Assembly (NCBI RefSeq): GCF_014048465.1
Contig: NZ_PDLY01000004.1
Coordinates: 186,001-250,000 of the forward strand
Direction of reading: 5' to 3'
Source of the DNA: Bombella mellum
Lineage (GTDB): Bacteria > Pseudomonadota > Alphaproteobacteria > Acetobacterales > Acetobacteraceae
DNA: 64,000 nucleotides
Shown here: piece after piece, positions 4,138 through 33,474 of the stretch
How the letters are laid out: every line of letters begins with the position of its first letter
Numbering within the stretch: position 1 is the first letter of the stretch
Made by a program: the position numbers and the translations under genes
The notes under the pieces: generated by a model
Told to the model about the DNA's origin: nothing
Databases searched by the model: none
What the model saw: the letters and a program-made list of their open reading frames with translations, nothing else

Positions 4138-5892
4138 TCAGAAGGCACGGTTCTCCAGCCGCACGCCCTCCCCTTCGGGCAGGCGGACCTCATCCCGATA
4201 GGGACCGCCCGCCAGCAGCTCTATGGAGAGGAAAAGCGGACGGGTCATCATTCCTGACCGGCCAGACAGGACAAGACGGGCCGCACCATTGGTCCACCGG
4301 CAGGGTGAGGCCTCCTGCACGTCCCATCCGTCCTGACGGGATGCGGACAGGAACCCCGTCACATCCTCCCTTTCGCCATTCTCCCAGAAGAGGCGCACCT
4401 GACTGACCAGCACCCCAAGACGACGCCGGTCATCCACGAAAGGACCGATCACGTCACAGGGCCGGCTGACACGAGAAACCAGCATGACCTCGTCACACCC
4501 TTCGGTCAGACGGAACAGATAACGCTGCCCCGTCTTTCTGACGAGCGGAAGGGACTGCCCCGAAAGCGTCAGCACGGTCAGGTCCGGGTCAGTCAGAAGA
4601 CCCTCCGCCTCACATGTTTCATTTCCGGAACGTTCATGAAGGGCACGATGGACAGGTTCGACAAAAGCCCGCTGGACACCCAGCGGAGCTGCCGCATCCG
4701 TCTCCCAGCACCGGCTGTCACTTTCTGCCCACCGGCCCGCCTGAAAAATGAATCCCTGACGGTTGCCCGTATCCAGATAACTTTCCGTCAGGGCACCATC
4801 CACCTCGACAATGCCATGAGGCTCGACCTCGAAATGCCAGTAATCATACTCGTCGATGCTGCGGTCATAGGCAATGGAAGACCCGTTGACCAGCATCCGT
4901 ACCGGAATGAAATGACCATCCAGCAGCAGGCAGTGCTCCGAGGTCACGAGCATGTCCTTGTGCGGCACATTGTCCGCCAGAGCGTTACGGCGGATCCGCA
5001 CGGGCCAGCCAGCCTCGTCATCCGGCAGATCGGGCCGCACGGTGACGTGCCCCTGCCCGACCCATGTGACCAGCCGCATCCCCTGCGGCTCGCCATCGGC
5101 CGAAAAAACGGCCACGGAATCCCCCACGGCCAATGTCTCCACCGTCACCGGGCCTGCATCGGTACGGACCATGCTGCCGGAAAGATAGCAGGTTATGACA
5201 CCACCCCTTCCGTCATCATGACCATTGCTGCTGGTGAACGCATAGGTATAGCCCGTGATGTTCCCCCAGAAATCCTGCTGCGGCGTGCCATTGACCTTCA
5301 GTTCGAACGGGTCCCCCCTCAGGGTCGTGGTCCGCCCGATGGTCACGATGCCCAGGGCATTCACCCCGTCGCCGATCGTCGTGCAGTCCGCCACGGGATC
5401 ATAGACGGCACCGACCGACTGCGTACCCGGAAAATCCATGACGAAATTGGTGGGAATCTTCGTGGTGGGATGGCCTTGGGCATCCACAAAATTGACCGGC
5501 AGGTCGAAACGGACCCCGAAGCCCTGCTTCTCTATCCGCAGCTCCCCCGCATTGGGGCCGACCACGATGGTCGACCCGGCAGAGGCATTCAGCAGGCTGG
5601 AGCGGATGACAAGCCGCCCTCCATCCAGTGTCAGGGCATTGCCCAGCCCAAGATTGACGAACCCGCCCCCCACATAGGCGGTCGCCCCACCCTTTACGAT
5701 GATGGAACAGTCACCCCGCAGCTGCCCGAGTACGGAAGAAAGGTCCACCTGCACAGGATCACCCGGGGGCGTGAGGTGCGTACGGGTCACCGTGATGGAC
5801 GAAAGCCCGCCAATCTCCACAAAGCTGGACAGCTCCCCACTGCCGTAGACAGTGGCTGCGCCTGCCTTCACCCTGATCAAAGCCATGGCCAT
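4138..5892 (-). CDS. Hint-domain (hedgehog/intein) protein with N-terminal beta-repeat region
   Basis: A 584-residue protein. Residues 1-230 are Gly/Thr/Val-rich with repeated short beta-strand-like units, as in right-handed beta-helix proteins. The Hint_2 domain spans about 235-375. It starts with Cys235 (CYLSGS-M-V-R-T), followed by VETLAVGD and then SEHCLLLDGHFIPV and ESYLDTGN, which are landmark motifs of the family. The remaining 210 residues are a less conserved tail. Hint domains can perform self-splicing or self-cleavage through the first Cys. Such proteins are frequent in acetic acid bacteria, but their role is unknown. No signal peptide is visible. Either of two ATGs (5892 or 5886) could be the start. 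Confidence 0.8.
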   Translation of the reverse strand: MAMALIRVKAGAATVYGSGELSSFVEIGGLSSITVTRTHLTPPGDPVQVDLSSVLGQLRGDCSIIVKGGATAYVGGGFVNLGLGNALTLDGGRLVIRSSLLNASAGSTIVVGPNAGELRIEKQGFGVRFDLPVNFVDAQGHPTTKIPTNFVMDFPGTQSVGAVYDPVADCTTIGDGVNALGIVTIGRTTTLRGDPFELKVNGTPQQDFWGNITGYTYAFTSSNGHDDGRGGVITCYLSGSMVRTDAGPVTVETLAVGDSVAVFSADGEPQGMRLVTWVGQGHVTVRPDLPDDEAGWPVRIRRNALADNVPHKDMLVTSEHCLLLDGHFIPVRMLVNGSSIAYDRSIDEYDYWHFEVEPHGIVEVDGALTESYLDTGNRQGFIFQAGRWAESDSRCWETDAAAPLGVQRAFVEPVHRALHERSGNETCEAEGLLTDPDLTVLTLSGQSLPLVRKTGQRYLFRLTEGCDEVMLVSRVSRPCDVIGPFVDDRRRLGVLVSQVRLFWENGEREDVTGFLSASRQDGWDVQEASPCRWTNGAARLVLSGRSGMMTRPLFLSIELLAGGPYRDEVRLPEGEGVRLENRAF

Positions 5893-6153: not shown

Positions 6154-7107
6154 TCAGAACCAGCTGCGGATGCCAAAGGTGAACCGGGCCTCACTGGCCC
6201 GCTCTCCCCGCTTCCTTGCCATGTGCCGCCCCTGTGTCAGAGGTGAATCATACGTCACGGCCACATAGGGAGCCATCTTGCGCCAGACCTCGTAACGCAG
6301 ACGCAGGCCGGTATCGATGTCCGCCAGCCCCGAACCGACCTGACGCCGTGGATCGGCACGGCTGTACAGGTTCAGCTCCACCTGCGGCTGGAGAATCAGC
6401 CTGTTGGTCAGAAGGATGTCATAAGACCCCTCAAACCGGCCCGCCACACCACGGTCACTGAAATAGCCGGTCGCCTGCACCTCGAACTGATACAGGGCCA
6501 GCCCCTCCACACCGACCGCTCCCCAGGCACGGGCCGGGCCACTGTCCAGGTCCAGCCGGACACCTCCCTGAAGGTTGAAATAGGTGGATATGGCCCGGCT
6601 GTAGAGCAGCTCCTGATCTCCGTCACGAACCCTGCCTTTCGTCATGGTCCCTTCACTCTTGAGCCAGAGGCGGTTGTAGTCTCCACCATACCAGGCCTCA
6701 CCATCCCAGCGGAGCGAAGACCTGCCACCCGTCTGGTAACGCCCCTCAAACTCGTCCAGCACACCATGAAACCATCGGCCCATGTCCATGCCGTGCATGT
6801 GATGCCCGATATCCACCCTGGGGGCTGGTGCATCCACAGCTTTGTGAACGATTCGGGGCGTCTTCTGCCGGACCTGCTGCGGGGCAGGCCGTACGTTCCG
6901 GGCGGCAGGATGGCTCATCTCCGGCATGTCCATGTCATCCATGTCCGACATGTCCGACATGTCCATGCCGGACATATCCATTCCGGACATGTCATGAGTT
7001 TCCATCTGGCCCATTTGGGACTGTCCCGCCATGCCATCCATCGCCCGAACGGACGGAGCCAGAAAACAGGCCAGCATGACCAGAGACATCATGTTTCCAG
7101 TTTTCAT
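6154..7107 (-). CDS. copB: Copper resistance outer-membrane protein CopB
   Basis: 317 residues from the ATG at 7107, which has GGGAGG upstream. The N terminus is a signal peptide (MKTGNMMSLVMLACFLAPSV, cut near RA), followed by a Met/Asp-rich copper-binding stretch with repeated D-M-S-G-M units, then HHMHGMDM. The C-terminal two thirds match the CopB domain, a predicted beta-barrel ending in an aromatic residue (RSWF). CopB proteins sit in the outer membrane and bind or sequester copper. The start codon overlaps the copA stop as ATGA, so the genes are translationally coupled. Confidence 0.9.
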   Translation of the reverse strand: MKTGNMMSLVMLACFLAPSVRAMDGMAGQSQMGQMETHDMSGMDMSGMDMSDMSDMDDMDMPEMSHPAARNVRPAPQQVRQKTPRIVHKAVDAPAPRVDIGHHMHGMDMGRWFHGVLDEFEGRYQTGGRSSLRWDGEAWYGGDYNRLWLKSEGTMTKGRVRDGDQELLYSRAISTYFNLQGGVRLDLDSGPARAWGAVGVEGLALYQFEVQATGYFSDRGVAGRFEGSYDILLTNRLILQPQVELNLYSRADPRRQVGSGLADIDTGLRLRYEVWRKMAPYVAVTYDSPLTQGRHMARKRGERASEARFTFGIRSWF

Positions 7108-8816
7108 GAGATCACCACCTCCCGGAACATGCCTGTCTGCATGTGATACATGAGATGGCAGTGATAGGCCCACACGCCCGGCGCATCCGCCGTGACCAGA
7201 ACGCTCATGCGGGACCCCGGTTGTGAAATGACCGTATGCTTCAGCGGGCGGTGCTGGTCATCCGCTCCATTCTCCAGTTCGCTCCACAGCCCATGAAGAT
7301 GGAGGGGATGTTCCATCATCGTATCATTGATGACCGTGAACCGGACCCGCTCACCACGGGCCAGATGAATCGGCCCGGACTCGGAATATTTCCGGCCATT
7401 GAAACCCCATATGTAGCGTTCCATGTTGCCCGTGAGATGCAGGATGATTTCCCGTGAGGGGGGCCGCTGGTCCGGCGGAGGACGCAACGCCACCAGATCA
7501 CTGTAGGCCAGGACCCTGCGGCCCGTTCCCTCCAGCCCGTCGCCCGGGCTGCCGACACGTTCCACCGGATGGGCGGCGATGTTCTGGTTCTCCACATTCA
7601 GGGGAGGCGGGCCGGGGTCATCAATTTCATCGGCAGGGGTCCGCTGGAGGACTGGCGGCATCGCCATCCCCGCCATGTTTTTCATGCCTGCCATCATGGG
7701 CATGGCCATGCCCATGTCCACCATGCCCCGCACGGGCCTGGGGTCCATCGGCGGCACATCTCCCAGCAGACCAAGGCGAGGTGTCAGCGTGCCACGGGCA
7801 TGACCGGTACGGTCTTCGCTCTGGGCAAAGATGGTGTAGGGCCGTGCTTCCTGGGGCGTCACCATCACCACATAGGTTTCACCCGGTGCGATGCGGAACT
7901 CATCAACCGGCACGGGAACAACGGGATTCCCGTCCGCCTCCACCACCTGCATCTCCAGCCCCGGGATGCGGACATCAAACAGCGTCATGGCCGCCGCATT
8001 GATGACCCGCAGGCAGACCCGCTCTCCCGGCCGGAACAGGCCGCTCCATCCCTGTGCCGGGGATTCGCCGTTCATGAGATAGGTGTAGATGACACCGCTG
8101 ACATCAGAGATGTCCGTGGCACTCATCCTCATGCGGGACCATTGCAGGCGGCTCTTCAGGGCAGGAAGCAGCCCTCCGGCCCGGCGGCTTTCCTCCGGCA
8201 AGGACGCCATACTGCGCTGCCGGAAATTATAGTAATCGTCCTGCATCTTGAGATTGGCGACGATCTGCTCTGCCGACACGTCAGACCAGTCCGACAGGAG
8301 AATCGTATGGTCCCTGTCTGCCGTCGGCAGCGGCGATTCTCCGGCGGGATCAATGATCAGGGCACCGTAAAGACCCGCTGATTCCTGATGCCCCATGTGG
8401 CTGTGATACCAATATGTGCCACTCTGAAGGACCGGAAACGAGTAGGTGAACTTCCCGCCTGCCGGAATCCCGGCAAAACTCAGCCCCGGCACGCCGTCCT
8501 GATCGCTTGGCAGGCGGATGCCATGCCAGTGCAGGGATGTGGGTTCATCCATGTGATTATGGACATGGATGCAGACCTCCCGCCCCTCCTGCCAGCGCAG
8601 GACCGGGCCGGGCATCTGACCATTGACGCAGTACCCCTCACCACGGCGTCCTGCGACATGGACCTTCCTGCGGGTGACGTGCAGCTCCATCTCCAGCGGC
8701 GGCAGGGCCGATGGCGTGGGAGAAGTGGCCCGGCCTGTTCCCGGCAGGGCCATGAGAGAACCTGCTGCTCCAAATCCCGCCAGAAACCGGCGGCGCAGCA
8801 TGAAATGACGTGACAT
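7104..8816 (-). CDS. copA: Multicopper oxidase CopA (copper resistance, periplasmic)
   Basis: 570 residues with a Tat signal (RRRFLAGFG followed by a hydrophobic stretch, cut near GRA at 30), showing export in folded form. Three cupredoxin domains carry the four copper motifs: HWHG (96-99), HSHMGH (138-143), HPLHLHG and HCHLMYHMQTGM near the C terminus. A Met-rich insertion (MVDMGMAMPMMAGMKNMAG) is typical of CopA and related Cu(I) oxidases. The enzyme oxidises or sequesters copper in the periplasm. It lies in an operon between a small exported protein and copB. The first ATG has a weak ribosome binding site, and M6 is a possible alternative start. Confidence 0.93.
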   Translation of the reverse strand: MSRHFMLRRRFLAGFGAAGSLMALPGTGRATSPTPSALPPLEMELHVTRRKVHVAGRRGEGYCVNGQMPGPVLRWQEGREVCIHVHNHMDEPTSLHWHGIRLPSDQDGVPGLSFAGIPAGGKFTYSFPVLQSGTYWYHSHMGHQESAGLYGALIIDPAGESPLPTADRDHTILLSDWSDVSAEQIVANLKMQDDYYNFRQRSMASLPEESRRAGGLLPALKSRLQWSRMRMSATDISDVSGVIYTYLMNGESPAQGWSGLFRPGERVCLRVINAAAMTLFDVRIPGLEMQVVEADGNPVVPVPVDEFRIAPGETYVVMVTPQEARPYTIFAQSEDRTGHARGTLTPRLGLLGDVPPMDPRPVRGMVDMGMAMPMMAGMKNMAGMAMPPVLQRTPADEIDDPGPPPLNVENQNIAAHPVERVGSPGDGLEGTGRRVLAYSDLVALRPPPDQRPPSREIILHLTGNMERYIWGFNGRKYSESGPIHLARGERVRFTVINDTMMEHPLHLHGLWSELENGADDQHRPLKHTVISQPGSRMSVLVTADAPGVWAYHCHLMYHMQTGMFREVVIS

Positions 8817-8879
8817 GACAGAATGTACCTGAAAGACGTGACATGGATGACCGCCCCGATCCGGGCGGCAGAAAACAGG

Positions 8880-9290
8880 TCAGGCAGACAGGATCGCCGG
8901 TGGCCGCCAGGGTTTCACGACGGAAGAACGCAGCAGCAGCCTGACATCATGGAACAGGAACGCCCTCTGCCAGAGGCCGACCGGTTCCAGACTCTGCCCC
9001 TCCGGCAGCAGGCCGGCCTCACAGACGGCATGATGGCTCTGGCAGCAGGGAGCGATGTCTTCTTCCGTACCCGGTCGGGAAGAAACGGCCGTCTCCATCA
9101 CCATGCCCGCCCCCGGCGGAACCATCACGGCATCAGGGGAATCATTGTCACGGGAGGGCAGAAGCTGGCGGGCAGATGCGGACATCATCATGCCGTCCGC
9201 CATGGCCACGGGCATGACAAGAAGCGGCAGCTGCATCATCAGGCACAGCACCACTCCCATCATCATGCGAAAAAACCGCCCAACGGACAT
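8880..9290 (-). CDS. Small exported Met/His/Cys-containing protein of the copper operon
   Basis: 136 residues. The N terminus is a Met-rich hydrophobic signal (FRMMMGVVLCLMMQLPLLV), cut near AMADG. The mature part contains a Met-rich stretch and a C-C-x2-H-H-x3-C group that could bind metal. It starts with GGAGGG about 13 bp upstream and precedes copA by 63 bp on the same strand, so it is probably the first gene of the copper operon. I do not recognise a named family. Small periplasmic copper-binding or metal-sensing helper proteins are common in this position. Confidence 0.55.
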   Translation of the reverse strand: MSVGRFFRMMMGVVLCLMMQLPLLVMPVAMADGMMMSASARQLLPSRDNDSPDAVMVPPGAGMVMETAVSSRPGTEEDIAPCCQSHHAVCEAGLLPEGQSLEPVGLWQRAFLFHDVRLLLRSSVVKPWRPPAILSA

Positions 9291-9394
9291 GAAACGCCTT
9301 TTCTCCCTCCGGAACGGACACCAGATTAGGAAGGTTCCTCCCCTGTGGGAAGACAGTCCCCTGCCATCTTCTATATCATGAAACGGGATTTTTT
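9291..9394. promoter_or_regulatory. Divergent copper promoter region with TTCC-N9-GGAA palindrome
   Basis: A 104-bp space between the divergent copper operon and the copper chaperone gene. It contains an interrupted palindrome, TTCC then nine bases then GGAA at 9335-9351, that could be the site of a copper-responsive repressor or MerR-type activator. No regulator gene is seen nearby. TATATC at about 9371-9376 is a possible -10 box for the plus strand. Confidence 0.35.
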
Positions 9395-9604
9395 ATGAGC
9401 GAAACCCTCGTCCTCCCTCTCACCGGCCTGAAATGTGATGGCTGTGTCCGCTCCCTGACCCGTGCCCTTGAAGCCTCTCCGGCCATCGAGACGGCCACCG
9501 TCACGCTCGACCCGCCACAGGCACACATCATTTTCACCAGTCCCGCCCTCTCCAGGGAAGACTGTGCGCTCCTCATCCAGAAAGCCGGTTTCGGGACGGC
9601 CTGA
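9395..9604 (+). CDS. Heavy-metal-associated domain copper chaperone (CopZ-like)
   Basis: 69 residues covering one complete HMA ferredoxin-like domain. The metal-binding motif is GLKCDGC at 11-17 (two Cys separated by two residues); the usual Met before it is replaced by Leu-Lys. Such proteins carry Cu(I) in the cytosol to exporters or regulators. It is divergent from the copA operon and probably under the same control. The ribosome binding site is weak (ACGGG before a run of T). No copper ATPase is in the window. Confidence 0.85.
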   Translation: MSETLVLPLTGLKCDGCVRSLTRALEASPAIETATVTLDPPQAHIIFTSPALSREDCALLIQKAGFGTA

Positions 9605-9610
9605 AGAAAA

Positions 9611-9640
9611 AACCACCGGGGTCCATGGCCCCCGGTGGTT
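9611..9640. terminator. Bidirectional terminator between copper chaperone and microcin-like gene A
   Basis: CCACCGGGG at 9613-9621 pairs with 9630-9638 (plus AA/TT), with an eight-base loop. The minus strand continues with TTTTTTCTTC, giving a good terminator for peptide gene A; the plus-strand tail is TTCTTC. Confidence 0.8.
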
Positions 9641-9688
9641 CTTCAGCGTCCATGTCACCGCCCCGGACGGGCGGTCATGCATGGCGGA

Positions 9689-10105
9689 TCAGAAAAGTCC
9701 GCCGCCCTTGGGCAGCAGACTGCCTGTCAGGAAGGCCTGCACCGCACCGTCACGGTAGCCCTGCGTCCCGACATAACCACCGGACAGACCCAGCATTGCG
9801 CCCGTCAGGCCACCAACCGTCAGTCCCAGAATCACGCCGACAGCCTCGGCGATCACGCCGACACCGATGACACCGCCCGTACCGTTGGCACCACCGTTGG
9901 CACCACCCGTGAGACCACCAACAGCTGCCCCGACGATACCATCCACGACGCCGCCAACGAGGCTGTCCACAAAACCGAGCGAAGCACGCACGGGGAAAAG
10001 GCCAGTGCTGCTGTTGCTGCTTCCTGAAGAAGCCGTCCCGTCACGGTAGCCGAGGAGACCACCACCAGATACCGCAGCAAGCTCGTTAAAAGAAAGTTCA
10101 CGCAT
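9689..10105 (-). CDS. Double-glycine-leader glycine-rich peptide A (microcin/class II bacteriocin-like)
   Basis: 138 residues from the ATG at 10105, preceded by GAAAGG. The first 15 residues, MRELSFNELAAVSGG, match the colicin V-type leader pattern (Met-Arg, Glu-Leu at 8-9, Val at 12, Gly-Gly at the cut). Predicted mature peptide: 123 residues, no Cys, very rich in Gly/Ala/Val with many GxxxG patterns (GIVGAAVGGLTGG), so probably membrane-inserting. A short GYRDG motif occurs twice, near both ends. It resembles peptide B (10331-10741) along its length (GF-x-DS, GGV-x-G-x-G, AVG-x-I). Export is expected through the adjacent C39 ABC system. The toxic role is inferred and has not been shown. Confidence 0.8.
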   Translation of the reverse strand: MRELSFNELAAVSGGGLLGYRDGTASSGSSNSSTGLFPVRASLGFVDSLVGGVVDGIVGAAVGGLTGGANGGANGTGGVIGVGVIAEAVGVILGLTVGGLTGAMLGLSGGYVGTQGYRDGAVQAFLTGSLLPKGGGLF

Positions 10106-10330
10106 TTCTAGAACCTTTCGATAACCTCGCATCCAATTGCGAATGCGAGTGCGTATCATTAAAAAGTTGAAATATGTTTTCATTATGTCGCTGTTATTCT
10201 TACTTTTTTATCGGATTTTTTATCCAATCTTTCCTCTATCTTTCTGATTTTTTAATGCAAAGCCTCTATGATTCCGCCCCGGTCACAGTCATCACGACTG
10301 GCCAATTCTTTCTAAATCAAGGTATGAACA
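10106..10330. promoter_or_regulatory. Divergent promoter region of the two microcin-like genes
   Basis: 225 bp, notably AT-rich with T-tracts, between two divergent leader-peptide genes. CTCGCAT (10126-10132) and its complement ATGCGAG (10143-10149) form an inverted repeat in the leader of gene A. A smaller repeat, CAGTC and GACTG (10286-10290 and 10296-10300), lies before gene B. These may be operators or mRNA hairpins. A 29-codon open frame overlapping gene B's start has no coding features. Confidence 0.5.
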
Positions 10331-10741
10331 ATGCGCGAACTTAGTGTTGCAGAACTGGACGTTGTTGCCGGTGGTGGTTTCCTGAGCAACCTGTTTGGTG
10401 GCTCAACCACGAGCCGGGCCCAGACCCCTGGCGTTGGCCAGACGTCCTCCGGCTTTCTGGACTCCGTTCTCGGCGGAATCGCTGGTGCCGCCATCGGCGC
10501 AAACAGCGGCATGATCATCGGCGGCATGCACGGCGGTGATGGTGGTGGTGTCCTCGGCATCGGCAGCATCGGTCAGGCCGTCGGCCTGATCGTCCCGACC
10601 ATCATGGGCGCCATCAACGGTGGCATCCTCGGCGCCATCTACGGCTTCAGCAACGGTCAGCCGTGGATCAACCAGCTGATCCAGGGCACGGCCAACGGGA
10701 CGATCGGCCAGGGTCCCAATGCTGCTGCCGTTCGTGTCTAA
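10331..10741 (+). CDS. Double-glycine-leader glycine-rich peptide B (microcin/class II bacteriocin-like)
   Basis: 136 residues. Leader MRELSVAELDVVAGG (15 residues) is nearly identical to that of peptide A and fits the colicin V-type processing site. The mature part of about 121 residues has no Cys and is Gly/Ala/Ile-rich (GGIAGAAIGANSG, GGDGGGVLGIG) with two hydrophobic stretches and a polar Asn/Gln-rich tail. Shared landmarks with peptide A suggest paralogues and perhaps a two-peptide bacteriocin. The start is preceded by CAAGGT. A strong terminator follows at 10774-10809, so it is transcribed alone. Confidence 0.8.
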   Translation: MRELSVAELDVVAGGGFLSNLFGGSTTSRAQTPGVGQTSSGFLDSVLGGIAGAAIGANSGMIIGGMHGGDGGGVLGIGSIGQAVGLIVPTIMGAINGGILGAIYGFSNGQPWINQLIQGTANGTIGQGPNAAAVRV

Positions 10742-10773
10742 GACCGGTTCCTGAACCGAGCTTTTGCATGAAG

Positions 10774-10809
10774 TGCCCGCCTGTCTCCGGACAGGTGGGC
10801 ATTTTTTTT
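10774..10809 (+). terminator. Rho-independent terminator of peptide gene B
   Basis: A 12-bp stem (10774-10785 with 10790-10801, one G-T pair) with a 4-nt loop is followed by eight T residues at 10802-10809. Confidence 0.9.
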
Positions 10810-10864
10810 GTGCCAATCGCGACCTGCTTCTTCCGGCAGGATCATTGCTGAGGCCATAAAAAAG

Positions 10865-10895
10865 CTCCCGCTGACAGATATCAGCGGGAGTTTTT
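10865..10895. terminator. Terminator of the microcin-like export operon
   Basis: CTCCCGCTGA at 10865-10874 pairs with 10881-10890, loop of six. The minus strand ends in CTTTTTTAT, so it terminates the ABC exporter gene; on the plus strand five T residues follow. Confidence 0.85.
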
Positions 10896-10925
10896 CATGT
10901 CACGGACGGAAACCAAAGACCCCGG

Positions 10926-13112
10926 TCAGGCCGAGGCGGGAGCCGCTCCCATCGCCGTCGGTACGTCTTCCTTGGCCAGATTGGCCATCACCTCTGCCGG
11001 AATCCCCATCGCGAATATCCTGTCAGCCCGCTCCGCCGTACCGGGACGGTGGGTCACGATCACCCTCGTGATGGGCAGCTCGTTCAGCACCGCTTCCACG
11101 GCCTGCTCGGAAGCCGGATCCAGATTGCTGGTCGCCTCGTCAAGGAACAGGATGCGGGGAGCCTGATACAGGGCACGGGCCAGAATGAGCCGCTGCCGCT
11201 GTCCACCGGAAAGCGTGCTGCCCATCTCACCGACAATGGTCTCAAAACCCATCGGCATACGCTGGATGTCCTCATGCATCTGCGCATTTCTGGCACATTC
11301 GGCCACCCATTCCATGTCCATCTCATCATCGAAGCCTGAGATGTTCTCGGCAATACTGCCAGAGAAAAGAATGTCATCCTGAAGGACACCGGCAATGCGG
11401 GCACGATAGGCTTCCCGGTTAGCCGCCTTCAGCTCCACGCCCTTCCAGAAAATCTGGCCTTCCTCGGGCTGGATGAGGCCCATCAGCAGGCCCAGCAGGG
11501 TGGACTTTCCACAGCCTGACGGCCCGACAATCGCCAGACTCTGGCCGGGATAGACCTTCATGTCCAGATGACGGAACACCCAGGCATCTTCCTTGCCGTA
11601 ACGGTAACCGAGATTGCGACATTCCAGCATCGGAACGTCCGGATTCTCCAGCCCATCATCATCAGCCAACGCTGCGGCATCGACAGGCGGACCATCTGCC
11701 TCACTGCCTTCAGCCTCGGCCAGGGCGATGTCGGACAGGCGGTCACACTGGACCTTGAGATTCTTGATCTTGAAAGCGACGCTGATCAGGCTGCCCACAC
11801 GGCCACAGAACTGGTCACGATAGCTCATGAAAGCCATCAGCATACCGATGGACATGCCACCGGACATGACCATGCGGGCACCCAGCACGAGGGTCACCAC
11901 CTTGTCCAGAGCAATCAGGAATTCCTGCGCCCGGGCGAAGATGAGGTCATAACGCTGGATGCGAAGCCCGGCATTGATGTTGTCAATCATCCGGTTTGTC
12001 CAGACGACGGCCCGCCGCCGCTGGAGACCCATCAGCTTGATGCTGCGGATGCCCCGCAACGTCTCGATGAAATGCCCCTGCTGCGCTGCGGCATGGACCA
12101 GTGATTCCTCGGACATCTCCTTGTACGGACCATACTGGATGAAGCGCACGATCAGGTCCACCAGAACGGTGACAGCAACGAGAGCCGCCATCCACTTGCC
12201 GTACATGATGATCATGACCAGCATCCCGATGGCCATGATGCCATCCAGAATGCTCTGCACCAGGTCCGTCGTGAAGGTATGCTGGATGGCCCCGAGACTG
12301 CCGAAGCGGGAAATGATGTCACCGGCCCCACGCTTGGCAAAGAAGTCCTGCGGAAGATTCAGCAGATGGGTGAACAGGCTGACATTCCATTGCAGGGAGA
12401 TGCGGGTGGAAAAGATCATTACCAGCCACGTGCGGAACGTGGAAATCACCCCCTGCACGATGACGAGAATAAGCATCCCGGCAGCGATCGTCCAGAGCAG
12501 GGACTTGTCACCCGTCGTCAGCACCTCGTCGATGACGACCTGCCCCAGCATCGGATTGATCAGGGCAAGGACCTCCAGCCCCAGTGACAGCCCGCCCAGC
12601 GTCCACAGGACCGTCTTCAGCCCCATGATGTGACGGAACATGTCCCGCACCTTCAGCAGGCGGCGGTCATCCTTCTTCTCGAACTTCGTCTCCGGGCTGA
12701 GTTCCAGTGCCACACCCGTGAAATGCCGTGACACCTCCTCAAAGGTGATCTTCCGTTCCCCACGGGCAGGGTCATTCACGATGATGCCGGAATCCGTGAC
12801 CTTCGTCAGCACGACGAAATGGTTGAAATCCCAGTGCAGGATGCACGGACGGGCCAGCTTGCTGAGGTCATCCAGTTCCAGCCGGACGGGGCGGCAGTGC
12901 AGCCCGTACCGTCCGGCAATCTTCATCAGGGAACGCAGATTCAGCCCCGTACCGGAAACCGCCGTTTCACGACGGATGGACACGAGGTCAACCAGCCGCC
13001 CGTAGTGACACAGCACCATGGCAAGACAGGCCAGACCACATTCGGCAACTTCTGTCTGAAGGATGACGGGAACCTTGCGCCGGAACCCTGTCTGAATGGT
13101 ATGGAGATTCAC
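10926..13112 (-). CDS. C39-peptidase bacteriocin-type ABC exporter (CvaB/LagD-like)
   Basis: 728 residues, start GTG at 13112. An N-terminal C39 peptidase domain (about 1-150) has catalytic Cys25 (QTEVAECGLACL), His98 (DFNHFVVL) and Asp114 (NDPA); it would cut the double-glycine leaders. A six-helix membrane domain follows (about 165-470), then an ATPase with Walker A GPSGCGKST, signature LSGGQRQR, Walker B ILFLDEATSNLD and the His switch THRP. It sits in the inner membrane and should cleave and export the two leader peptides. The GTGA overlap with the HlyD-type gene shows tight coupling. Confidence 0.95.
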   Translation of the reverse strand: MNLHTIQTGFRRKVPVILQTEVAECGLACLAMVLCHYGRLVDLVSIRRETAVSGTGLNLRSLMKIAGRYGLHCRPVRLELDDLSKLARPCILHWDFNHFVVLTKVTDSGIIVNDPARGERKITFEEVSRHFTGVALELSPETKFEKKDDRRLLKVRDMFRHIMGLKTVLWTLGGLSLGLEVLALINPMLGQVVIDEVLTTGDKSLLWTIAAGMLILVIVQGVISTFRTWLVMIFSTRISLQWNVSLFTHLLNLPQDFFAKRGAGDIISRFGSLGAIQHTFTTDLVQSILDGIMAIGMLVMIIMYGKWMAALVAVTVLVDLIVRFIQYGPYKEMSEESLVHAAAQQGHFIETLRGIRSIKLMGLQRRRAVVWTNRMIDNINAGLRIQRYDLIFARAQEFLIALDKVVTLVLGARMVMSGGMSIGMLMAFMSYRDQFCGRVGSLISVAFKIKNLKVQCDRLSDIALAEAEGSEADGPPVDAAALADDDGLENPDVPMLECRNLGYRYGKEDAWVFRHLDMKVYPGQSLAIVGPSGCGKSTLLGLLMGLIQPEEGQIFWKGVELKAANREAYRARIAGVLQDDILFSGSIAENISGFDDEMDMEWVAECARNAQMHEDIQRMPMGFETIVGEMGSTLSGGQRQRLILARALYQAPRILFLDEATSNLDPASEQAVEAVLNELPITRVIVTHRPGTAERADRIFAMGIPAEVMANLAKEDVPTAMGAAPASA

Positions 13113-14500
13113 GGCGTCCCCCCTGTTTCTTTATGGCTGGATGGAGCGGGAGACGGCGCATCGACACCGTCCGCCAGAGAGTGGGCCGGCGCACCACCAC
13201 CGGAGATGGAGCGCACCGTATCCACCATCGAAACGACCGGATCGAGCAGCCACTGGTACAGCTTGCGCTGGTCGATGGCGATTTCCGCCTCCACGGCCAT
13301 GCCGGGCGTCAGTTTCTCATGACGGCCATAGGCAATGATGAAATCCCGGTCGGGCCGGACACGGATACGGTACACGTCGGCACCGGGCTGAGGGGCGGAC
13401 GCACTTCCGCCCTGTTTGGCAGAATTGGCGGCATAACCGCTCCTTTCCGGCAGGGGAGCCTTGGTCACCTCCACGACCTCGCCTTCATAAAGGCCAAAAC
13501 GCTGATAGGGATAGGCGGCATATTTCAGCAACACCCGCTGGCCGGGCCGCACGAAACCGACCGCCTGACTGTTCACATACAGTTCCGCCTGAAGGACGGC
13601 CTTGTCCGGCAGGATGCTCAGCAGGGACTGGCCGGGATTGACACGCTGCCCCACGACGGTGCGGATGCCATCCACCGTACCGCTCACGCGGGCATTGACG
13701 ACCCCCATGCTCTGGCCATGCGCCTGGATGATCTGTCTCTGCACATCCGAAAGACGGACGGCAAGGTCATTCATGTCTTCCGCCACCTTGTAATGGTGCC
13801 GGTTGATCCTGTACTGGAGGTCCGCCATGTGGCCGTTCATTTCGACCAGCGTCCGCAGGGTCTGGGACTGTGTATCCATGAACTGGACATAGCTGAAGAG
13901 CTGGCTCTGGAACTGGCTTTCCGTCACAAGGTGACGGTCCATGGCCGTCCGCATCTCATTCATGGCTCTTTCGATCAGAGGCAGGGATTTCTTGTCCCGC
14001 CCCGACTGCTCCTGCAACATGCCATACTGCTGCCTCAAGGAGGACAGCTCATCCTTGAGTGATGAAAGCTCCACGGGAGCATCGGAGGCCAGCAGTTTCT
14101 GACGGCTCTCCAGCAGGTCCTGTTCCCGCCGCAATCCATCGACAAGCTGCCGCCCTGTGGCCCCTGCCTCCGACCAGTTGGACACGTCCACGCTGAAAAG
14201 ACGTTGCCCAACCGTTACGTGTTCTCCCTCGTGAGTATGGATGCCTGCAATGACACCCCCCTGATCCGCTTCCGCCACGACCAGCCCTTCTGGCGGAAGC
14301 ATGACACCATTGGCATGGATGCGCCGCGTATAGGACCCGAAAATGACATAAACCCCCACGCAGGCCACGAGAGCCACGGTACAGAGTGCCGCAATCTTGC
14401 CCGAAAGAGGTTCGATTAACTGGACGGAGCCGATCCACGCCTCCTGCCGCCACTTCAGGGCTTCCCCCCGGAAGAGCGGGCTTGCTGAGTCTTCAGCCAT
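13109..14500 (-). CDS. HlyD/CvaA-type membrane fusion protein
   Basis: About 463 residues from the ATG at 14500 (a GTG three codons upstream is possible; neither has a clear ribosome binding site). A short cytosolic N terminus with WRQEAWIGSVQL is followed by one membrane helix (KIAALCTVALVACVGVYVI), a half-lipoyl motif (VIAGIHTHEGEHVTVGQRL), a long coiled-coil section and a beta-barrel domain (GTVDGIRTVVGQRVNPGQSL). This is the layout of CvaA, the adaptor that joins the ABC exporter to TolC. It is the first gene of the export operon. Confidence 0.9.
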   Translation of the reverse strand: MAEDSASPLFRGEALKWRQEAWIGSVQLIEPLSGKIAALCTVALVACVGVYVIFGSYTRRIHANGVMLPPEGLVVAEADQGGVIAGIHTHEGEHVTVGQRLFSVDVSNWSEAGATGRQLVDGLRREQDLLESRQKLLASDAPVELSSLKDELSSLRQQYGMLQEQSGRDKKSLPLIERAMNEMRTAMDRHLVTESQFQSQLFSYVQFMDTQSQTLRTLVEMNGHMADLQYRINRHHYKVAEDMNDLAVRLSDVQRQIIQAHGQSMGVVNARVSGTVDGIRTVVGQRVNPGQSLLSILPDKAVLQAELYVNSQAVGFVRPGQRVLLKYAAYPYQRFGLYEGEVVEVTKAPLPERSGYAANSAKQGGSASAPQPGADVYRIRVRPDRDFIIAYGRHEKLTPGMAVEAEIAIDQRKLYQWLLDPVVSMVDTVRSISGGGAPAHSLADGVDAPSPAPSSHKETGGTP

Positions 14501-14630
14501 ACACCACACAGAACATTCAAGTGAAACGATAAAGAAATATTAAGATTTTTCATGGATAATACTATAGCCATGCACGAAACAAGCAAGGCACTAAATAGAT
14601 AATGTTTTCTTTACTCAAGGTTAACCGTTT
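14501..14630. promoter_or_regulatory. Divergent promoter region between adaptor and TolC-like genes
   Basis: About 130 bp of AT-rich sequence between the export operon (minus) and the TolC-like gene (plus). TAGATAAT near 14597 is a possible -10 box for the plus direction. Shared control of both halves of the export system is plausible. Confidence 0.4.
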
Positions 14631-16052
14631 ATGCTTCTTTTCTTTTCTTCCGTAGAGAAAAGACATGCTGTTCTTGTGACTGCCCTCGTTAGCCTTTTTT
14701 CCGCTTTGCCCTGTTCCGCAGAAGACAAACCTTCTCCTCCAGTCACCCATCTGTCCCTGCCAGAAGCAATGGCCATTGCCTATCGCTCCAATCCACAGAT
14801 TCTCCGTGAACAGGCCATCCTGCGACAGACTGATGAATCCATGCCGGAAGCCCTGGCGGGCTGGCGGCCCACCGTGAGCGGCAGTGCCACTGCCAACTAC
14901 AACGAGTCCAATTATGTCACCTTTCCATATGGTGGCAGCTTCCGGTACAATCAGAAGTTCCGGGCACCGGGTTATGCCGCAGGCGTAACCATCAGCGAGC
15001 CCATTTTCCGTGGCGGCAAGACATGGGCCTCCACGCGCAAGGCCCGCAGCTCCATCCTCGGGGAGCGGGCACATCTCGTGGACATCGAGCAGCAGCTTTT
15101 CGTCAACGTCGTCTCGGCCTATGTGGCCGTGACACAGACCCGTGCCCTGCTGGCCCTGACGCTGGAAAACGAGCATACGCTGAAGGGGCAGGTCGAACTG
15201 ACCACCCGGCAGCTGGCCCTGAACCAGGCCACCCGTACCGACGCCCTCCAGGCGGAATCACAGTATGAGGCCGCCCAGGCCACGACACGTCAGGCCGAAG
15301 GGCAGGTCCGGGTGGCGGAAGCCACCTTCCAGCGTGTCATCGGGATCGTTCCGCCCCAGGAACTGTCGCCTCCCGAACAGCTTCCGTCTCCTTTCAAGAC
15401 GGAAGAACAGATCAACCAGCTGGCCATCAACAATCTGCCACAGGTCATGCAGGCACAGTATCAGCTGGAATCGGCCAAGCATGATGTCAAACTGGCCATC
15501 GCCGAACTTTTGCCACAGATTTCCGCACAGGCCTCCTACCAGCGGCAGGTGAACCAGGGCAACGGCAAGTTCTCCGAGAATGCCACCTCCGTGATGCTCC
15601 AGGCCTCCCTGCCCCTGTATCAGGGGGGTGGTGAATATGCCCGCATCCGTGCCGCCAAGCAGGCCGTGGATGCCGCCTTCCACAATCTGGCCGAACAGAG
15701 ACGCGAGGCAAGGGAAAGCGCCCTGAGTGCCTGGCAGAAACTGACCGCCGACAGTGACCAGCTGGCCCGCAACCAGAAGGCCGTCGCCACGGGCGTGGAA
15801 GCCCTCCATGCCATCCAGCAGCAGGAGCTTCTGGGGGTACGGACCACCTTCGAGGTCCTCCAGCAGCAGGAGCTTCTGTTCGACCAGCAGAAGACGCTCG
15901 TCCAGAACGCCGCCAACCTTGTCGAGGACTCCTACCATCTGGCTGCAGCGACTGGCCATCTGACGGCAAGGGAACTCAACCTGCACGTCGCCCTCTATGA
16001 CCCCCGTGCCCATTACCATCAGGTGAAATGGAAACTGATCGGGATGGAATGA
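14631..16052 (+). CDS. TolC-family outer-membrane channel
   Basis: 473 residues with a signal peptide (hydrophobic LVTALVSLFSALPCSA, cut near SAED). Two tandem repeats of TolC type are visible: the first with LSLPEAMAIAYRSNPQI and GVTISEPIFRGG, the second with LAIAELLPQISAQASY and LQASLPLYQGGGEYARI; a long helical section follows. Such trimers form the outer-membrane exit of type I export. Its place opposite the ABC/adaptor operon suggests that it completes the microcin-type exporter, though it may also serve the MATE-side efflux region or other pumps. Start ATG has AAGG 11 bp upstream. Confidence 0.92.
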   Translation: MLLFFSSVEKRHAVLVTALVSLFSALPCSAEDKPSPPVTHLSLPEAMAIAYRSNPQILREQAILRQTDESMPEALAGWRPTVSGSATANYNESNYVTFPYGGSFRYNQKFRAPGYAAGVTISEPIFRGGKTWASTRKARSSILGERAHLVDIEQQLFVNVVSAYVAVTQTRALLALTLENEHTLKGQVELTTRQLALNQATRTDALQAESQYEAAQATTRQAEGQVRVAEATFQRVIGIVPPQELSPPEQLPSPFKTEEQINQLAINNLPQVMQAQYQLESAKHDVKLAIAELLPQISAQASYQRQVNQGNGKFSENATSVMLQASLPLYQGGGEYARIRAAKQAVDAAFHNLAEQRREARESALSAWQKLTADSDQLARNQKAVATGVEALHAIQQQELLGVRTTFEVLQQQELLFDQQKTLVQNAANLVEDSYHLAAATGHLTARELNLHVALYDPRAHYHQVKWKLIGME

Positions 16053-28878: not shown

Positions 28879-30579
28879 CTACATACGCATGGACCACCCA
28901 CGGCTCTGGGTCTGTTCAAACTCCTGTGTCTGCCCCTGAATGCTCGTCTGCCTCTGCTGGACATCAGCACCGGGGGAGGCCTGTACCTTATGAAGAAGAT
29001 TCTGCCAGTACATTCCCGTATCAGACACGCTGGACATTTCAGACGTACGGACCGTTTTTTCCGGAAGCAGGATGGATTCGACGGTCTGTGCCTGTCTGGC
29101 CCTGTAGGCGTCATCAAGCACCTGACGGGTCTGGGAACCGACGAGGCCATCAACCTTCAGGCCATTGTCCCGCTGAAACTCTTCAACACCATATTTTGTC
29201 AAAGGACCAAATTTTCCATCAACGGACAGTTCCCTGCCATCCCGGCCCGTATAGTGCAGTGCATTGAGTTCATGCTGCACGTCAGAAACCCGATCACCAT
29301 GAGAGCCTTCTTTCAGAAGCGGTACCGTCATGCGGGAAGACTCTCTTCCGACTGCATGGGACATTTCATGAACCGCCTCATGCCGCAAAGGCTCCACCTG
29401 CGGGTGAGGAGACGCTTCAGAATGGGAGGGAGCAGTTACATGAGGACTGGCCTGTGTCTGGAGAGCTGGAGACGCCTCTGCCCGCCTTACCTCATTCTCG
29501 GCAGGATGGACGGAATGTTCTGCCGCCCTGACACTTTGGGCAGCCTCTGCCGTCGTACTGGCGGTCTGTGTCTGTCTGGCCCGGCAGAGTACATCCAGCC
29601 TGCTCAGCGTATCACTGTCAGCGACACCGTGAGGCGTCAGACCATTGGCTTCCTGAAGCTTCGTTACCGCCGCCCTGGTCCTGGCATCATATAGGCCATC
29701 AACAGCAACATCATAACCGGCAATATTGAGCTTTTCCTGCAACCGGGTAATGTCTTCTTTTGGACTGCGGGAGAAGACCGTTGGTGGAACGACCTCTTCA
29801 CTCACTGGCCGAGGGGTATAACCATTTTTAATGGCAGTATCCCATTCCCGAGCCCTGATTACCCGCTGATCTATGGCGTTTCTCCCACCATTGACGGTTC
29901 TTGTCAGATTTTCAGAGTCCATTGCAGCGTCAACAAGCAGTTTCCCGTGCTGCCTTCCTTTAAGATACTCAACGGCAGTCTCAGCTGCGATACGTGGATT
30001 GGCAGCAAGTTCGGGGTATTTTAGCAGATCGATGCCAAGTTTTTTGCCTATTGTCTCATAATTGTCATGCCCGGTAATCTGGTAATGCCCTCTCCCCTTG
30101 TAGAGATGGCCTTCTCCCTCTTTATTTTTCATTCTATGATCGTAGAGAAAGTCTCCCTTGGCGTCGGGGCTTATTTTATTAAAATCATCGACATCTTCCA
30201 CAGTCCTTATTTGCCGTCTATGATGATCAAGATCGACAAACGTACGCGGCACATGGTGGGCCCTGTCGTACTTTTCACACTTGTCTAGAAAGCGTTCTTC
30301 CTCACGATCATTTCTATAGAAATAGGCAAGATTCTCTTCCATTTTTGTAAAATGCTGCGTCTCGACATCTGCTTGGGCCATATAATTAGATAACAAATTC
30401 CGAAGAGACCTACCTTCTGAGGTGTCTTTACTTAGAGCATTTAAATCCGCTCCTTCTCTTTTGAACTCCTCAAAAAATCTAATCATCACCAGATCAGCAT
30501 AAGCTCTTTGTTTTCCTGTCAAATTCTGTAACGAGGAGGATGATTCTAAACTTTGGTGACGCCCGTTCCGCAATGACAT
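28879..30579 (-). CDS. GH19-type peptidoglycan hydrolase with two PG-binding domains, copy 1
   Basis: 566 residues from the ATG at 30579, which has AGGTGA close upstream (GTG at 30588 also possible). A GH19-type chitinase/lysozyme domain (about 20-265) has the catalytic Glu73 in DVETQHF and the motifs YKGRGHYQITGHDNY and VNGGRNA. Two PG_binding_1 domains follow (near 275-330, IAGYDVAVDGLYDARTRAAV; and near 420-490, DGKFGPLTKYGVEEFQ), joined by a Pro/His/Ala-rich linker. The tail is Gln-rich. There is no signal peptide, so export would need a special secretion system or lysis. It lies 58 bp after a gene for a predicted periplasmic protein that may protect the producer. Confidence 0.85.
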   Translation of the reverse strand: MSLRNGRHQSLESSSSLQNLTGKQRAYADLVMIRFFEEFKREGADLNALSKDTSEGRSLRNLLSNYMAQADVETQHFTKMEENLAYFYRNDREEERFLDKCEKYDRAHHVPRTFVDLDHHRRQIRTVEDVDDFNKISPDAKGDFLYDHRMKNKEGEGHLYKGRGHYQITGHDNYETIGKKLGIDLLKYPELAANPRIAAETAVEYLKGRQHGKLLVDAAMDSENLTRTVNGGRNAIDQRVIRAREWDTAIKNGYTPRPVSEEVVPPTVFSRSPKEDITRLQEKLNIAGYDVAVDGLYDARTRAAVTKLQEANGLTPHGVADSDTLSRLDVLCRARQTQTASTTAEAAQSVRAAEHSVHPAENEVRRAEASPALQTQASPHVTAPSHSEASPHPQVEPLRHEAVHEMSHAVGRESSRMTVPLLKEGSHGDRVSDVQHELNALHYTGRDGRELSVDGKFGPLTKYGVEEFQRDNGLKVDGLVGSQTRQVLDDAYRARQAQTVESILLPEKTVRTSEMSSVSDTGMYWQNLLHKVQASPGADVQQRQTSIQGQTQEFEQTQSRGWSMRM

Positions 30580-30637
30580 TTTTTTCACCTATCTACTGGA
30601 TATATGACAGAATTTCTTTAAAAGACCCCAAAGTCAG

Positions 30638-31776: not shown

Positions 31777-33474
31777 TTACATACGCATGGACCACCCACA
31801 GCTCTGGGTCTGTTCAAACTCCTGTGTCTGACCCTGAGTGCTCGTCTGCCTCTGCTGGACATCAGCACTGGGGGAGGCCTGTACCTTGTGAAGAAGATTC
31901 TGCCAGTACATCCCCGCATCAGACACGCTGGACATTTCAGACGTACGGGCCGTTTTTTCCGGAAGCAGGATGGATTCGACGGTCTGTGCCTGTCTGGCCC
32001 TGTAGGCGTCATCAAGCACCTGACGGGTCTGGGAACCGACAAGGCCATCAACCTTCAGGCCATTGTCCCGCTGAAACTCTTCAACACCATATTTTGTCAA
32101 AGGACCAAATTTTCCATCAACGGACAGTTCCCTGCCATCCCGGCCCGTATAGTGCAGTGCATTAAGTTCATGCTGCACGTCAGAAACCCGATCACCATGA
32201 GAGCCTTCTCTCAGAAGCGGTACCGTCATGCGGGAAGGCTCTCTCCCGACTTCATGGGACATTTCATGAGCCGCCTCATGCCGCAAAGGCTCCCCCCGCA
32301 GATGAGGAGACGCTTCGGAATGGGAAGGGGCATTTACATGAGGACTGGCCTGTGTCTGAAAAGCTGGAGACGCCTCTGCCCGCCTTACCTCATTCTCGGC
32401 AGGATGGGCGGAATGCTCTGCCGCCCTGACACTTTGAGCCACCTCTGCTGTCGTACTGGCGGTCTGTGTCTGTCTGGCCCGGCAGAGTACATCCAGCCTG
32501 CTCAGCGTATCACTGTCAGCGACACCGTGAGGCGTCAGACCATTGACCTCCTGAAGCTTCGTTACCGCCGCCTTGGTCCTAGCATCATATAGGCCATCAA
32601 CAGCAACATCATAACCGGCAATATTCAGCTTTTCCTGCAACCGGGTAATGTCTTCTTTTGAACTGCGGGAGAAGACCGTTGGTGGAACGACCTCTTCACT
32701 CACTGGCCGAGGGGTATAACCATTTTTAATGGCAACGTCCCATTCCTGAGCCCTTGTTACCCGCTGATCAAGGGCGTTTCTCCCACCATTAATGGTTCTG
32801 GTCAGCCTTTCAGAGTCTATTGCAGCGTCAGTAAGCAGCTTCCCATGCTGATTCTCTTTAAGGTACTCTATGGCAATTTCAGTAGCAATACGTGGATTGG
32901 AAGCAAGTTCAGGATACTTTAGCAGATCAATGCCAAGTTTCTGGCCTATGGTCTTATAATTGTCATGCCCGGTCAGCTGGCAATATCCTCGCCCCTTGTA
33001 GAGATGACCTTCTCCTTCTTTATTTCCCATCCTATGGTCATAGCGAAAATCTCCCTTGGCATCAGGACTGATTTTATTAAAGTCATCGACATCACTCAAA
33101 TTTTCTATCCGACGTCTGTGATGATCAAGATCAATAAATGTCCGAGAATTATGATGCTTCCTATCATGATTTATGCATTCTCTTAAAAATTCATCTTTAG
33201 ATTCCAGAGTGTTATACTTATATTTAAGATTTTCTTCCATTTTTTTAAAATGCCACGTTTCAACATCTGCTTGGCCCATATAATTGGACAACATCCCCCG
33301 AAGACGGCTACCCTCCAGAGTATCCTTACTTAGGACACTCAGATCAGCCCCTTCTTTTTTTAACTCTTCAACAAACTTGATCATGACCAAATCTGCTCGA
33401 GCTCGTTGCTCCTTTGTCAAATCTTGAGGAAACATCAATTGTGAACCTTGGTGTTGCGTGCGTCCTGTCGACAT
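31777..33474 (-). CDS. GH19-type peptidoglycan hydrolase with two PG-binding domains, copy 2
   Basis: 565 residues, start ATG at 33474 after GAGGCTG. Same architecture as copy 1: GH19-type domain with Glu72 in DVETWHF, GRGYCQLTGHDNY and INGGRNA; two PG_binding_1 domains; a Gln-rich tail ending WSMRM. From about residue 250 to the end it is almost identical to copy 1, while the enzyme domain differs at many positions (for example Trp for Gln after the catalytic Glu, and Tyr-Cys for His-Tyr in the GRG motif). No signal peptide. Its own partner gene lies 78 bp upstream. Confidence 0.85.
   Translation of the reverse strand: MSTGRTQHQGSQLMFPQDLTKEQRARADLVMIKFVEELKKEGADLSVLSKDTLEGSRLRGMLSNYMGQADVETWHFKKMEENLKYKYNTLESKDEFLRECINHDRKHHNSRTFIDLDHHRRRIENLSDVDDFNKISPDAKGDFRYDHRMGNKEGEGHLYKGRGYCQLTGHDNYKTIGQKLGIDLLKYPELASNPRIATEIAIEYLKENQHGKLLTDAAIDSERLTRTINGGRNALDQRVTRAQEWDVAIKNGYTPRPVSEEVVPPTVFSRSSKEDITRLQEKLNIAGYDVAVDGLYDARTKAAVTKLQEVNGLTPHGVADSDTLSRLDVLCRARQTQTASTTAEVAQSVRAAEHSAHPAENEVRRAEASPAFQTQASPHVNAPSHSEASPHLRGEPLRHEAAHEMSHEVGREPSRMTVPLLREGSHGDRVSDVQHELNALHYTGRDGRELSVDGKFGPLTKYGVEEFQRDNGLKVDGLVGSQTRQVLDDAYRARQAQTVESILLPEKTARTSEMSSVSDAGMYWQNLLHKVQASPSADVQQRQTSTQGQTQEFEQTQSCGWSMRM

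Follow-up and report, generated by a model that had tools for sequence, protein, structure and literature searches.

We analysed a 64-kb stretch of the Bombella mellum genome (contig NZ_PDLY01000004.1, positions 186,001 to 250,000; referred to as the window), in which two divergent genes, A and B, encode small glycine-rich peptides next to the genes of a type I exporter. The source genome comprises 2.07 Mb in 11 contigs. A preliminary description of this DNA had proposed a two-peptide microcin with its own exporter in an acetic acid bacterium, and the positions given there hold for all five genes (A, B, ABC exporter, adaptor and channel; Table 1).

Both precursors begin with a 15-residue leader ending in a double glycine (GG), in line with the colicin V type of leader that had been proposed. 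The leader of A begins at the ATG at 10105, and the upstream ATG of its 164-aa reading frame is dispensable. Within the window A and B are the sole matches to the leader pattern, compared with a mean of 0.1 matches in 20 triplet-block shuffles; the pattern was drawn up only after the first family members had been seen. Shine-Dalgarno-like letters, judged by eye, lie 5' of both genes.

The cores of 123 (A) and 121 residues (B) are free of cysteine and have glycine contents of 29% and 26%, respectively, as the preliminary description had stated in general terms. The GxxxG patterns noted there correspond to two glycine zippers per peptide (residues 59–75 and 90–110 in A, 48–64 and 93–109 in B). 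Glycine occurs at every fourth residue of these uninterrupted runs, and neither proline nor charge breaks them; such residues lie outside the zippers (D55, E87 and R118 in A; D44, H67, P89 and P111 in B). The C-terminus of B is polar with one arginine, that of A has one lysine and ends in glycine and hydrophobic residues. A and B are paralogues, as had been supposed: they share 31% identity (BLASTP, E = 2e-4) and a single profile matches both.

Among Bombella species, the ratio of non-synonymous to synonymous substitution (dN/dS) was 0.07–0.18 for A and 0.09–0.28 for B, rough values with several dS near or above 1. They suggest purifying selection on both genes. In two comparisons dS was 0.15–0.26 for A and 1.1–1.3, about five times as high, for the exporter gene. 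We considered this low synonymous divergence as a peculiarity of A and dropped the idea, because the raised identity also spans the neighbouring chaperone-like gene: the block 9400–10075, containing this gene and A, is about 84–98% identical between Bombella species in 150-base windows, above its flanks. Since the raised identity extends beyond A, it is more simply, and probably, explained by interspecies recombination.

The exporter is complete, as claimed earlier. Its C39 peptidase, ABC (ATP-binding cassette) membrane and ATPase domains all score far above the Pfam cut-offs. The spacing of its Cys/His/Asp triad (73 and 16 residues) equals that of CvaB, whose triad is Cys32/His105/Asp121 (PMC9746304). 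The adaptor scores under the TIGR01843 cut-off and above that of Pfam HlyD_3. Among named relatives of the exporter, the nearest come from Bombella species (91–92% identity), which agrees with the assignment to an acetic acid bacterium.

The gene for B is convergent with that of the exporter, 184 bp away, and a second terminator-like hairpin lies 3' of the exporter gene. By their layout A and B appear to be separate transcription units. Intergenic gaps between 9600 and 16100 do not exceed 225 bp, and a simple scan of the gap between A and B found no sigma-70-type promoter consensus.

Table 1. Features of the peptide locus and its surroundings, in window coordinates.
Feature	Position	Strand	Remarks
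Hint_2-domain protein (PF13403)	4138..5892	-	3.8 kb from A; membership uncertain
Peptide gene A	9689..10105	-	138-aa precursor, own ATG at 10105; 123-aa core; profile A2
Leader of A, MRELSFNELAAVSGG	codons 10105-10061	-	15 residues, GG end
Divergent A-B intergenic (promoter) region	10106..10330	.	225 bp, poorly conserved among species
36-aa hydrophobic frame	10137..10247	+	TTG start; in A-B gap; weak immunity candidate
Peptide gene B	10331..10741	+	136-aa precursor, 121-aa core, DUF5862-like
Leader of B, MRELSVAELDVVAGG	codons 10331-10375	+	15 residues, GG end
Terminator-like hairpin	10770..10805	+	16 pairs; 3' of B, in the gap before the convergent exporter gene
ABC exporter with N-terminal C39 peptidase	10926..13112	-	triad C25/H98/D114, GTG start
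HlyD-type membrane fusion protein	13109..14509	-	4-base overlap with exporter gene
TolC-type outer membrane channel	14631..16052	+	TIGR01844 254 bits, above cut-off; divergent from adaptor gene

Relatives of the peptides and probable cargo of the exporter

A profile built from 14 sequences (A2) was run over 397 Acetobacteraceae genomes taken from a larger group. It matched 21 of them at E ≤ 0.001, and 12 genomes from six genera at E = 1e-15 or better. The matches in the other nine were at E = 4e-5 or worse, and the five that were read (G274, G365, G374, G377, G449) are other types of GG-leader peptide. Across 385 alphaproteobacterial genomes, strong matches were confined to Acetobacteraceae, with four weak ones (E = 2e-4 or worse) outside this family. 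A local search gave a clear relative in Pseudomonas panipatensis (E = 3e-15), near a 44%-identical exporter. Genomes G049, G326, G330 and G394 have one strong copy each, G040 and G079 have two, and G023 has three plus one apart. In some sister species the GG end of the leader is replaced by GA. The preliminary description would have given up the bacteriocin idea if relatives had no export genes nearby. The relatives do not refute it in this way: a C39 exporter was found in all 12 strong-match genomes (G000–G003, G008, G023, G040, G049, G079, G326, G330, G394), although some of these encode it at a long distance from the peptides or on a different contig.

B also resembles the family DUF5862 (PF19180), which has no described function. 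The core of B matches 59 of its 68 positions with 28.4 bits (E = 1.6e-6), and A reaches 14.5 bits, both below the gathering score of 33.3; a relative in G040 exceeds it with 34.6 bits. Over the 385 alphaproteobacterial genomes, our own genome was the sole match, below the cut-off.

Within the genus, A and B occur together in four of 11 genomes and B alone in one. Both are present in B. favorum, B. intestini and B. apis, B. pluederhausensis (L023) has B only, and the stretch L103 shows an alignment gap at the place expected for A. B without A (L023/L103) means that the two do not form an obligate pair; with one, two or four copies in other genera, the strict two-peptide arrangement proposed earlier is not supported. 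Strain B3987 has the exporter and neither A nor B. In the stretch matching this strain (L147), the last codons of the B frame, seen by eye, remain beside the exporter gene, so that loss of the peptides is likely in this lineage.

Further copies lie in varied surroundings. One peptide is found with a Hint_2 gene on a 9.7-kb contig (L140, G326:C3), which also carries a replication-initiator-like gene (by eye) and is perhaps a plasmid. Another homologous peptide sits between transposase-like genes (by eye). A different GG-leader family with a VHQLAD...HYENEW-like end (L143:8283-8642 and L145:165-593) resembles, by eye, exporter-side peptides of Acinetobacter (L037) and Pseudomonas (L048).

A dedicated exporter for the two peptides had also been proposed. 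The genome has no other C39 match, and another of its contigs encodes a third GG-leader peptide (C), which argues against such a dedication. C (G000:C7:179647-180006; L151:2148-2507) lies 99 bp from a Hint_2 gene and is matched in six of the 11 genus genomes. In four of the C-bearing genomes a fourth GG-leader peptide, D, flanks the same Hint_2 gene on its opposite side. In 23 genomes searched with PF03412, exactly one C39 match was found in 19 and none in four. G006 has the exporter with five other GG-leader peptides alongside. At L148/L024, five GG-leader peptides with unlike cores adjoin an 81%-identical exporter; by eye, two have N-x-G-V-I-x-G-type repeats and two have FFPPE motifs.

GG-leader peptides were found in all seven genus genomes with the exporter and in none of the four without it (Fisher p = 0.003, kinship ignored). 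These four (G005, G007, G009, G010; no C39 match) gave no match to A/B or C and no leader match in the Hint_2 stretches read, a part of theirs; the absences thus rest on searches for A/B and C and on a leader scan of some Hint_2 stretches. One exporter would probably carry all these peptides.

Hint_2 genes beside the peptide relatives

In the other genera of Acetobacteraceae, a Hint_2 domain (PF13403) lies within 2.5 kb at all eight assessable strong loci. The G394 locus was excluded because of its position at a contig edge, and L139, at a contig end, could not be judged. The chance of such an adjacency was 0.003–0.033 per locus with rounded genome sizes, giving a product of about 1e-15 that treats the loci as independent, which is untrue for the two tandem G040 loci and in view of shared ancestry. 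Hint_2 genes also lie beside a cysteine-containing GG peptide of another type (L155, L156) and beside C in Bombella (L151, L183–L187). They are more than 3.7 kb away from A/B in Bombella and from the five peptides of L148. None was found in the fetched stretches of the loci L143, L145, L146, L149, L150, L157 and L158, whose GG peptides belong to other types, nor in 16 kb around the peptide of P. panipatensis (L033).

Viewed from the other side, 11 of 48 Hint_2 genes adjoin a peptide, in a set picked partly for peptides. The leader pattern had no match at 25 control Hint_2 loci (187.5 kb) or at eight plasmid loci. The first cysteine and a T-x-E-H motif are kept in all 16 Hint_2 proteins adjacent to a peptide, of which six are orthologues of one Bombella locus; among 58 others, these were present in 55 and 53, respectively. 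Because most non-adjacent proteins share both features, they show only that self-cleavage is possible. The heads of the adjacent proteins are shorter (median 188 versus 266.5 residues, p = 0.0009, with uneven sampling). A profile had suggested that the peptide-associated head is exclusive to exporter-bearing Bombella; we rejected this after a direct BLAST search found a related head (L190, E = 2e-7) in G009, a genome lacking a C39 exporter.

The Hint_2 protein of the window itself is weakly tied to A and B, given its distance, its differing head type and its presence in B3987, which has neither peptide. Its predicted structure is uninformative, with a mean pLDDT (predicted local distance difference test) of 50 and a strand-rich head at about 70, and a Foldseek search of the PDB with this model gave no match at E ≤ 0.001. 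Between its gene and A lies a copper-resistance cluster (6154-9604) encoding CopB (PF05275), a multicopper-oxidase-like protein, a 136-aa protein without family match and a short metal-chaperone-like protein; names other than CopB were assigned by eye. Farther away, a tandem pair of genes (28879-30588 and 31777-33474) encodes two closely similar proteins, 569 and 565 aa long and by eye of the chitinase/endolysin type with peptidoglycan-binding repeats.

Possible action of the peptides

The closest parallel among known systems is Cdz of Caulobacter crescentus (CdzC/CdzD, the CdzAB exporter and CdzI). Both systems consist of two small proteins, with glycine zippers and G[GAS] leaders, and an adjoining type I exporter in an alphaproteobacterium. 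The likeness was judged by published criteria. Cdz-like proteins are defined by a length of 60–151 residues, a G[G/A/S] leader end, one or two zippers flanked, and uninterrupted, by proline or charge, and a type I secretion system within 10 kb (PMC5380434); A and B have 138 and 136 residues, GG ends, two such zippers each and an exporter gene 184 bp from B. There are also differences. CdzC/CdzD are shorter (86/84 aa, A and B being about 1.6 times as long) and are encoded in one operon with an immunity gene, whereas A and B are divergent and no clear CdzI-like gene was found. Unlike CdzAB, the exporter probably serves further peptides, and relatives of A and B in other acetic acid bacteria adjoin Hint_2 genes.

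We favour, with some reserve, the reading that A and B are leader-cleaved glycine-zipper peptides that most likely act like Cdz. The patchy presence, the loss and the plasmid-like and transposase-flanked copies support it, as do the co-occurrence of exporter and GG-leader peptides in the genus and the class IIb profile match of D in a sister species (see below). Based on these comparisons we propose the following mechanism. A and B would be made as precursors and secreted as glycine-zipper peptides. Each leader would be recognized by the C39 domain of the adjoining exporter and cut after Gly15, and the core would leave the cell through the ABC-HlyD-TolC conduit. This conduit probably also serves one or more GG-leader peptides from other parts of the genome. 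By analogy with known families, cleavage and export of A and B are very likely. The cores of 121–123 residues would pack through their GxxxG faces and insert into or aggregate on membranes, as glycine-zipper packing at membranes has been proposed for CdzC/CdzD (PMC5380434). There they would most likely harm unprotected neighbouring bacteria in the manner of CdzC/CdzD. Such membrane-active antagonism is slightly favoured in our judgement, and contact dependence is less certain than this.

Several observations weigh against this reading. Neither peptide reaches the curated bacteriocin cut-offs in the profile search that the preliminary description had suggested as a check: A scores 14.4 bits with TIGR01847 (cut-off 15.7) and 11.1 bits with TIGR03949 (class IIb two-peptide bacteriocins, cut-off 21.5), and B is unmatched by both. 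The AlphaFold model of B (mean pLDDT 42) is uninformative, and a search of solved structures with the family profile gave no credible relative. GG-leader peptides can be without antibacterial activity, as the Nap peptides of Neisseria show (PMC11798529). What weakens a plain bacteriocin reading most is the lack of a convincing immunity gene, since verified class II microcins (PMC9746304) and Cdz (PMC5380434) have one. The annotatable neighbours of A and B held no convincing candidate, and a small membrane-protein gene common to the relatives' loci L104, L105, L106, L140, L141, L142 and L144 was not seen among frames of at least 45 aa, none overlapping longer ones. Three small frames in L144 with one hydrophobic stretch and a small lipoprotein-like frame in L106 are unlike by eye. 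Of the short neighbours in the window, 9395-9604 is metal-chaperone-like by eye, and 8880-9290 lies by the copper-resistance genes, its start being present also in L147 without A/B.

The hydrophobic frame in the gap between A and B has a 51-aa counterpart in two sister species (67% identity over 33 residues). In B. apis (L102), where both A and B are present, the frame is interrupted. Compared with L100 it has four synonymous and 11 non-synonymous codon changes with no excess at third positions, hence no coding signal; we therefore keep it as a weak candidate. The weakness is softened by the published Cdz-like set, in which immunity genes were hard to find and only sometimes found (PMC5380434).

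The best candidate for a partner of the peptides is the Hint_2 protein beside their relatives in other acetic acid bacteria. One may imagine an antagonism module peculiar to acetic acid bacteria, in which a C39-exported glycine-zipper peptide is paired with a Hint_2 protein (Hedgehog/intein-type, self-cleaving) that stands in for an immunity gene, either by displaying the peptide on the surface of the producer or by protecting the producer. One exporter would serve several such pairs, and the Hint partner of A/B in Bombella would have moved away. We regard this as a tentative proposal, unlikely to hold as a whole.

The same adjacency, together with the lack of a convincing immunity gene, could mean that the peptides are components of a surface structure, coating the cell along with Hint_2 surface proteins for biofilm formation or attachment to a host. 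Elsewhere in acetic acid bacteria, Hint_2 proteins are often long and encoded on plasmids, some beside recombinase genes and one beside an autotransporter heptosyltransferase gene, and CdzC itself makes surface aggregates (PMC5380434). However, a patchy distribution with losses and a plasmid-like copy would be expected of antagonism rather than of such a role, the leaders and zippers are of the types known from bacteriocins, and the 25 control Hint_2 loci are without such peptides. We consider a structural or adhesive role rather unlikely.

The leader pattern, the C39 exporter with its triad, the HlyD adaptor and the TolC-type channel are those of class II microcins of the colicin V type. A and B might be ordinary, freely diffusing microcins. 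Their immunity gene would then be located elsewhere or be very small, like the 36-aa gap frame, or none would be needed in producers without the receptor. The shortest verified immunity protein has 51 aa, the length of the hydrophobic gap frame in the two sister species, and perhaps not every microcin has one (PMC9746304). The verified genes, however, lie close to their microcin (PMC9746304), whereas the relatives' loci share none and B. apis has no intact gap frame. Strong zippers would favour aggregation over diffusion, and the Hint_2 genes beside relatives are a further difference from class II microcins. The cores of 121–123 residues also stand apart from these in size. Diffusing microcins therefore seem improbable to us. 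Class IIb two-peptide bacteriocins share the GG leader and GxxxG patterns with A and B, and D of a sister species (L183) passes the TIGR03949 cut-off (22.3 versus 21.5 bits), but A and B miss it, their genes are divergent and the partners are not obligate.

Self-directed lysis, in which part of the population would be lysed by peptides exported in stationary phase, is very improbable: Neisseria Nap likewise comprises GG-leader peptides beside a predicted C39 peptidase, on record without detected antibacterial activity (PMC11798529), and the lack of a convincing immunity gene would fit, but Nap cores are cationic and much shorter (16–36 residues, compared with 121–123 residues with few charges), the nap island has a FapF-like outer-membrane gene and its own LagC-like immunity candidate (PMC11798529), and autolysis leaves the Hint_2 adjacency unexplained.

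In published genome surveys, BAGEL4 detected no bacteriocins in 22 Bombella genomes (PMC9147383) and antiSMASH no clusters for ribosomally synthesized and post-translationally modified peptides in the Saccharibacter-Bombella clade (PMC8776678). The matches listed from the open-licence literature held no prior description of a Bombella bacteriocin and, for Hint domains in acetic acid bacteria, no link between GG-leader peptides and Hint_2; no paper on DUF5862 was found in this literature. Bombella has been linked with the protection of bee larvae (PMC9147383). If A and B act on other bacteria, they would provide a testable mechanism of competition in the hive. If the link between the peptides and Hint_2 is true, it would give a large group of uncharacterized proteins in acetic acid bacteria a first testable role.

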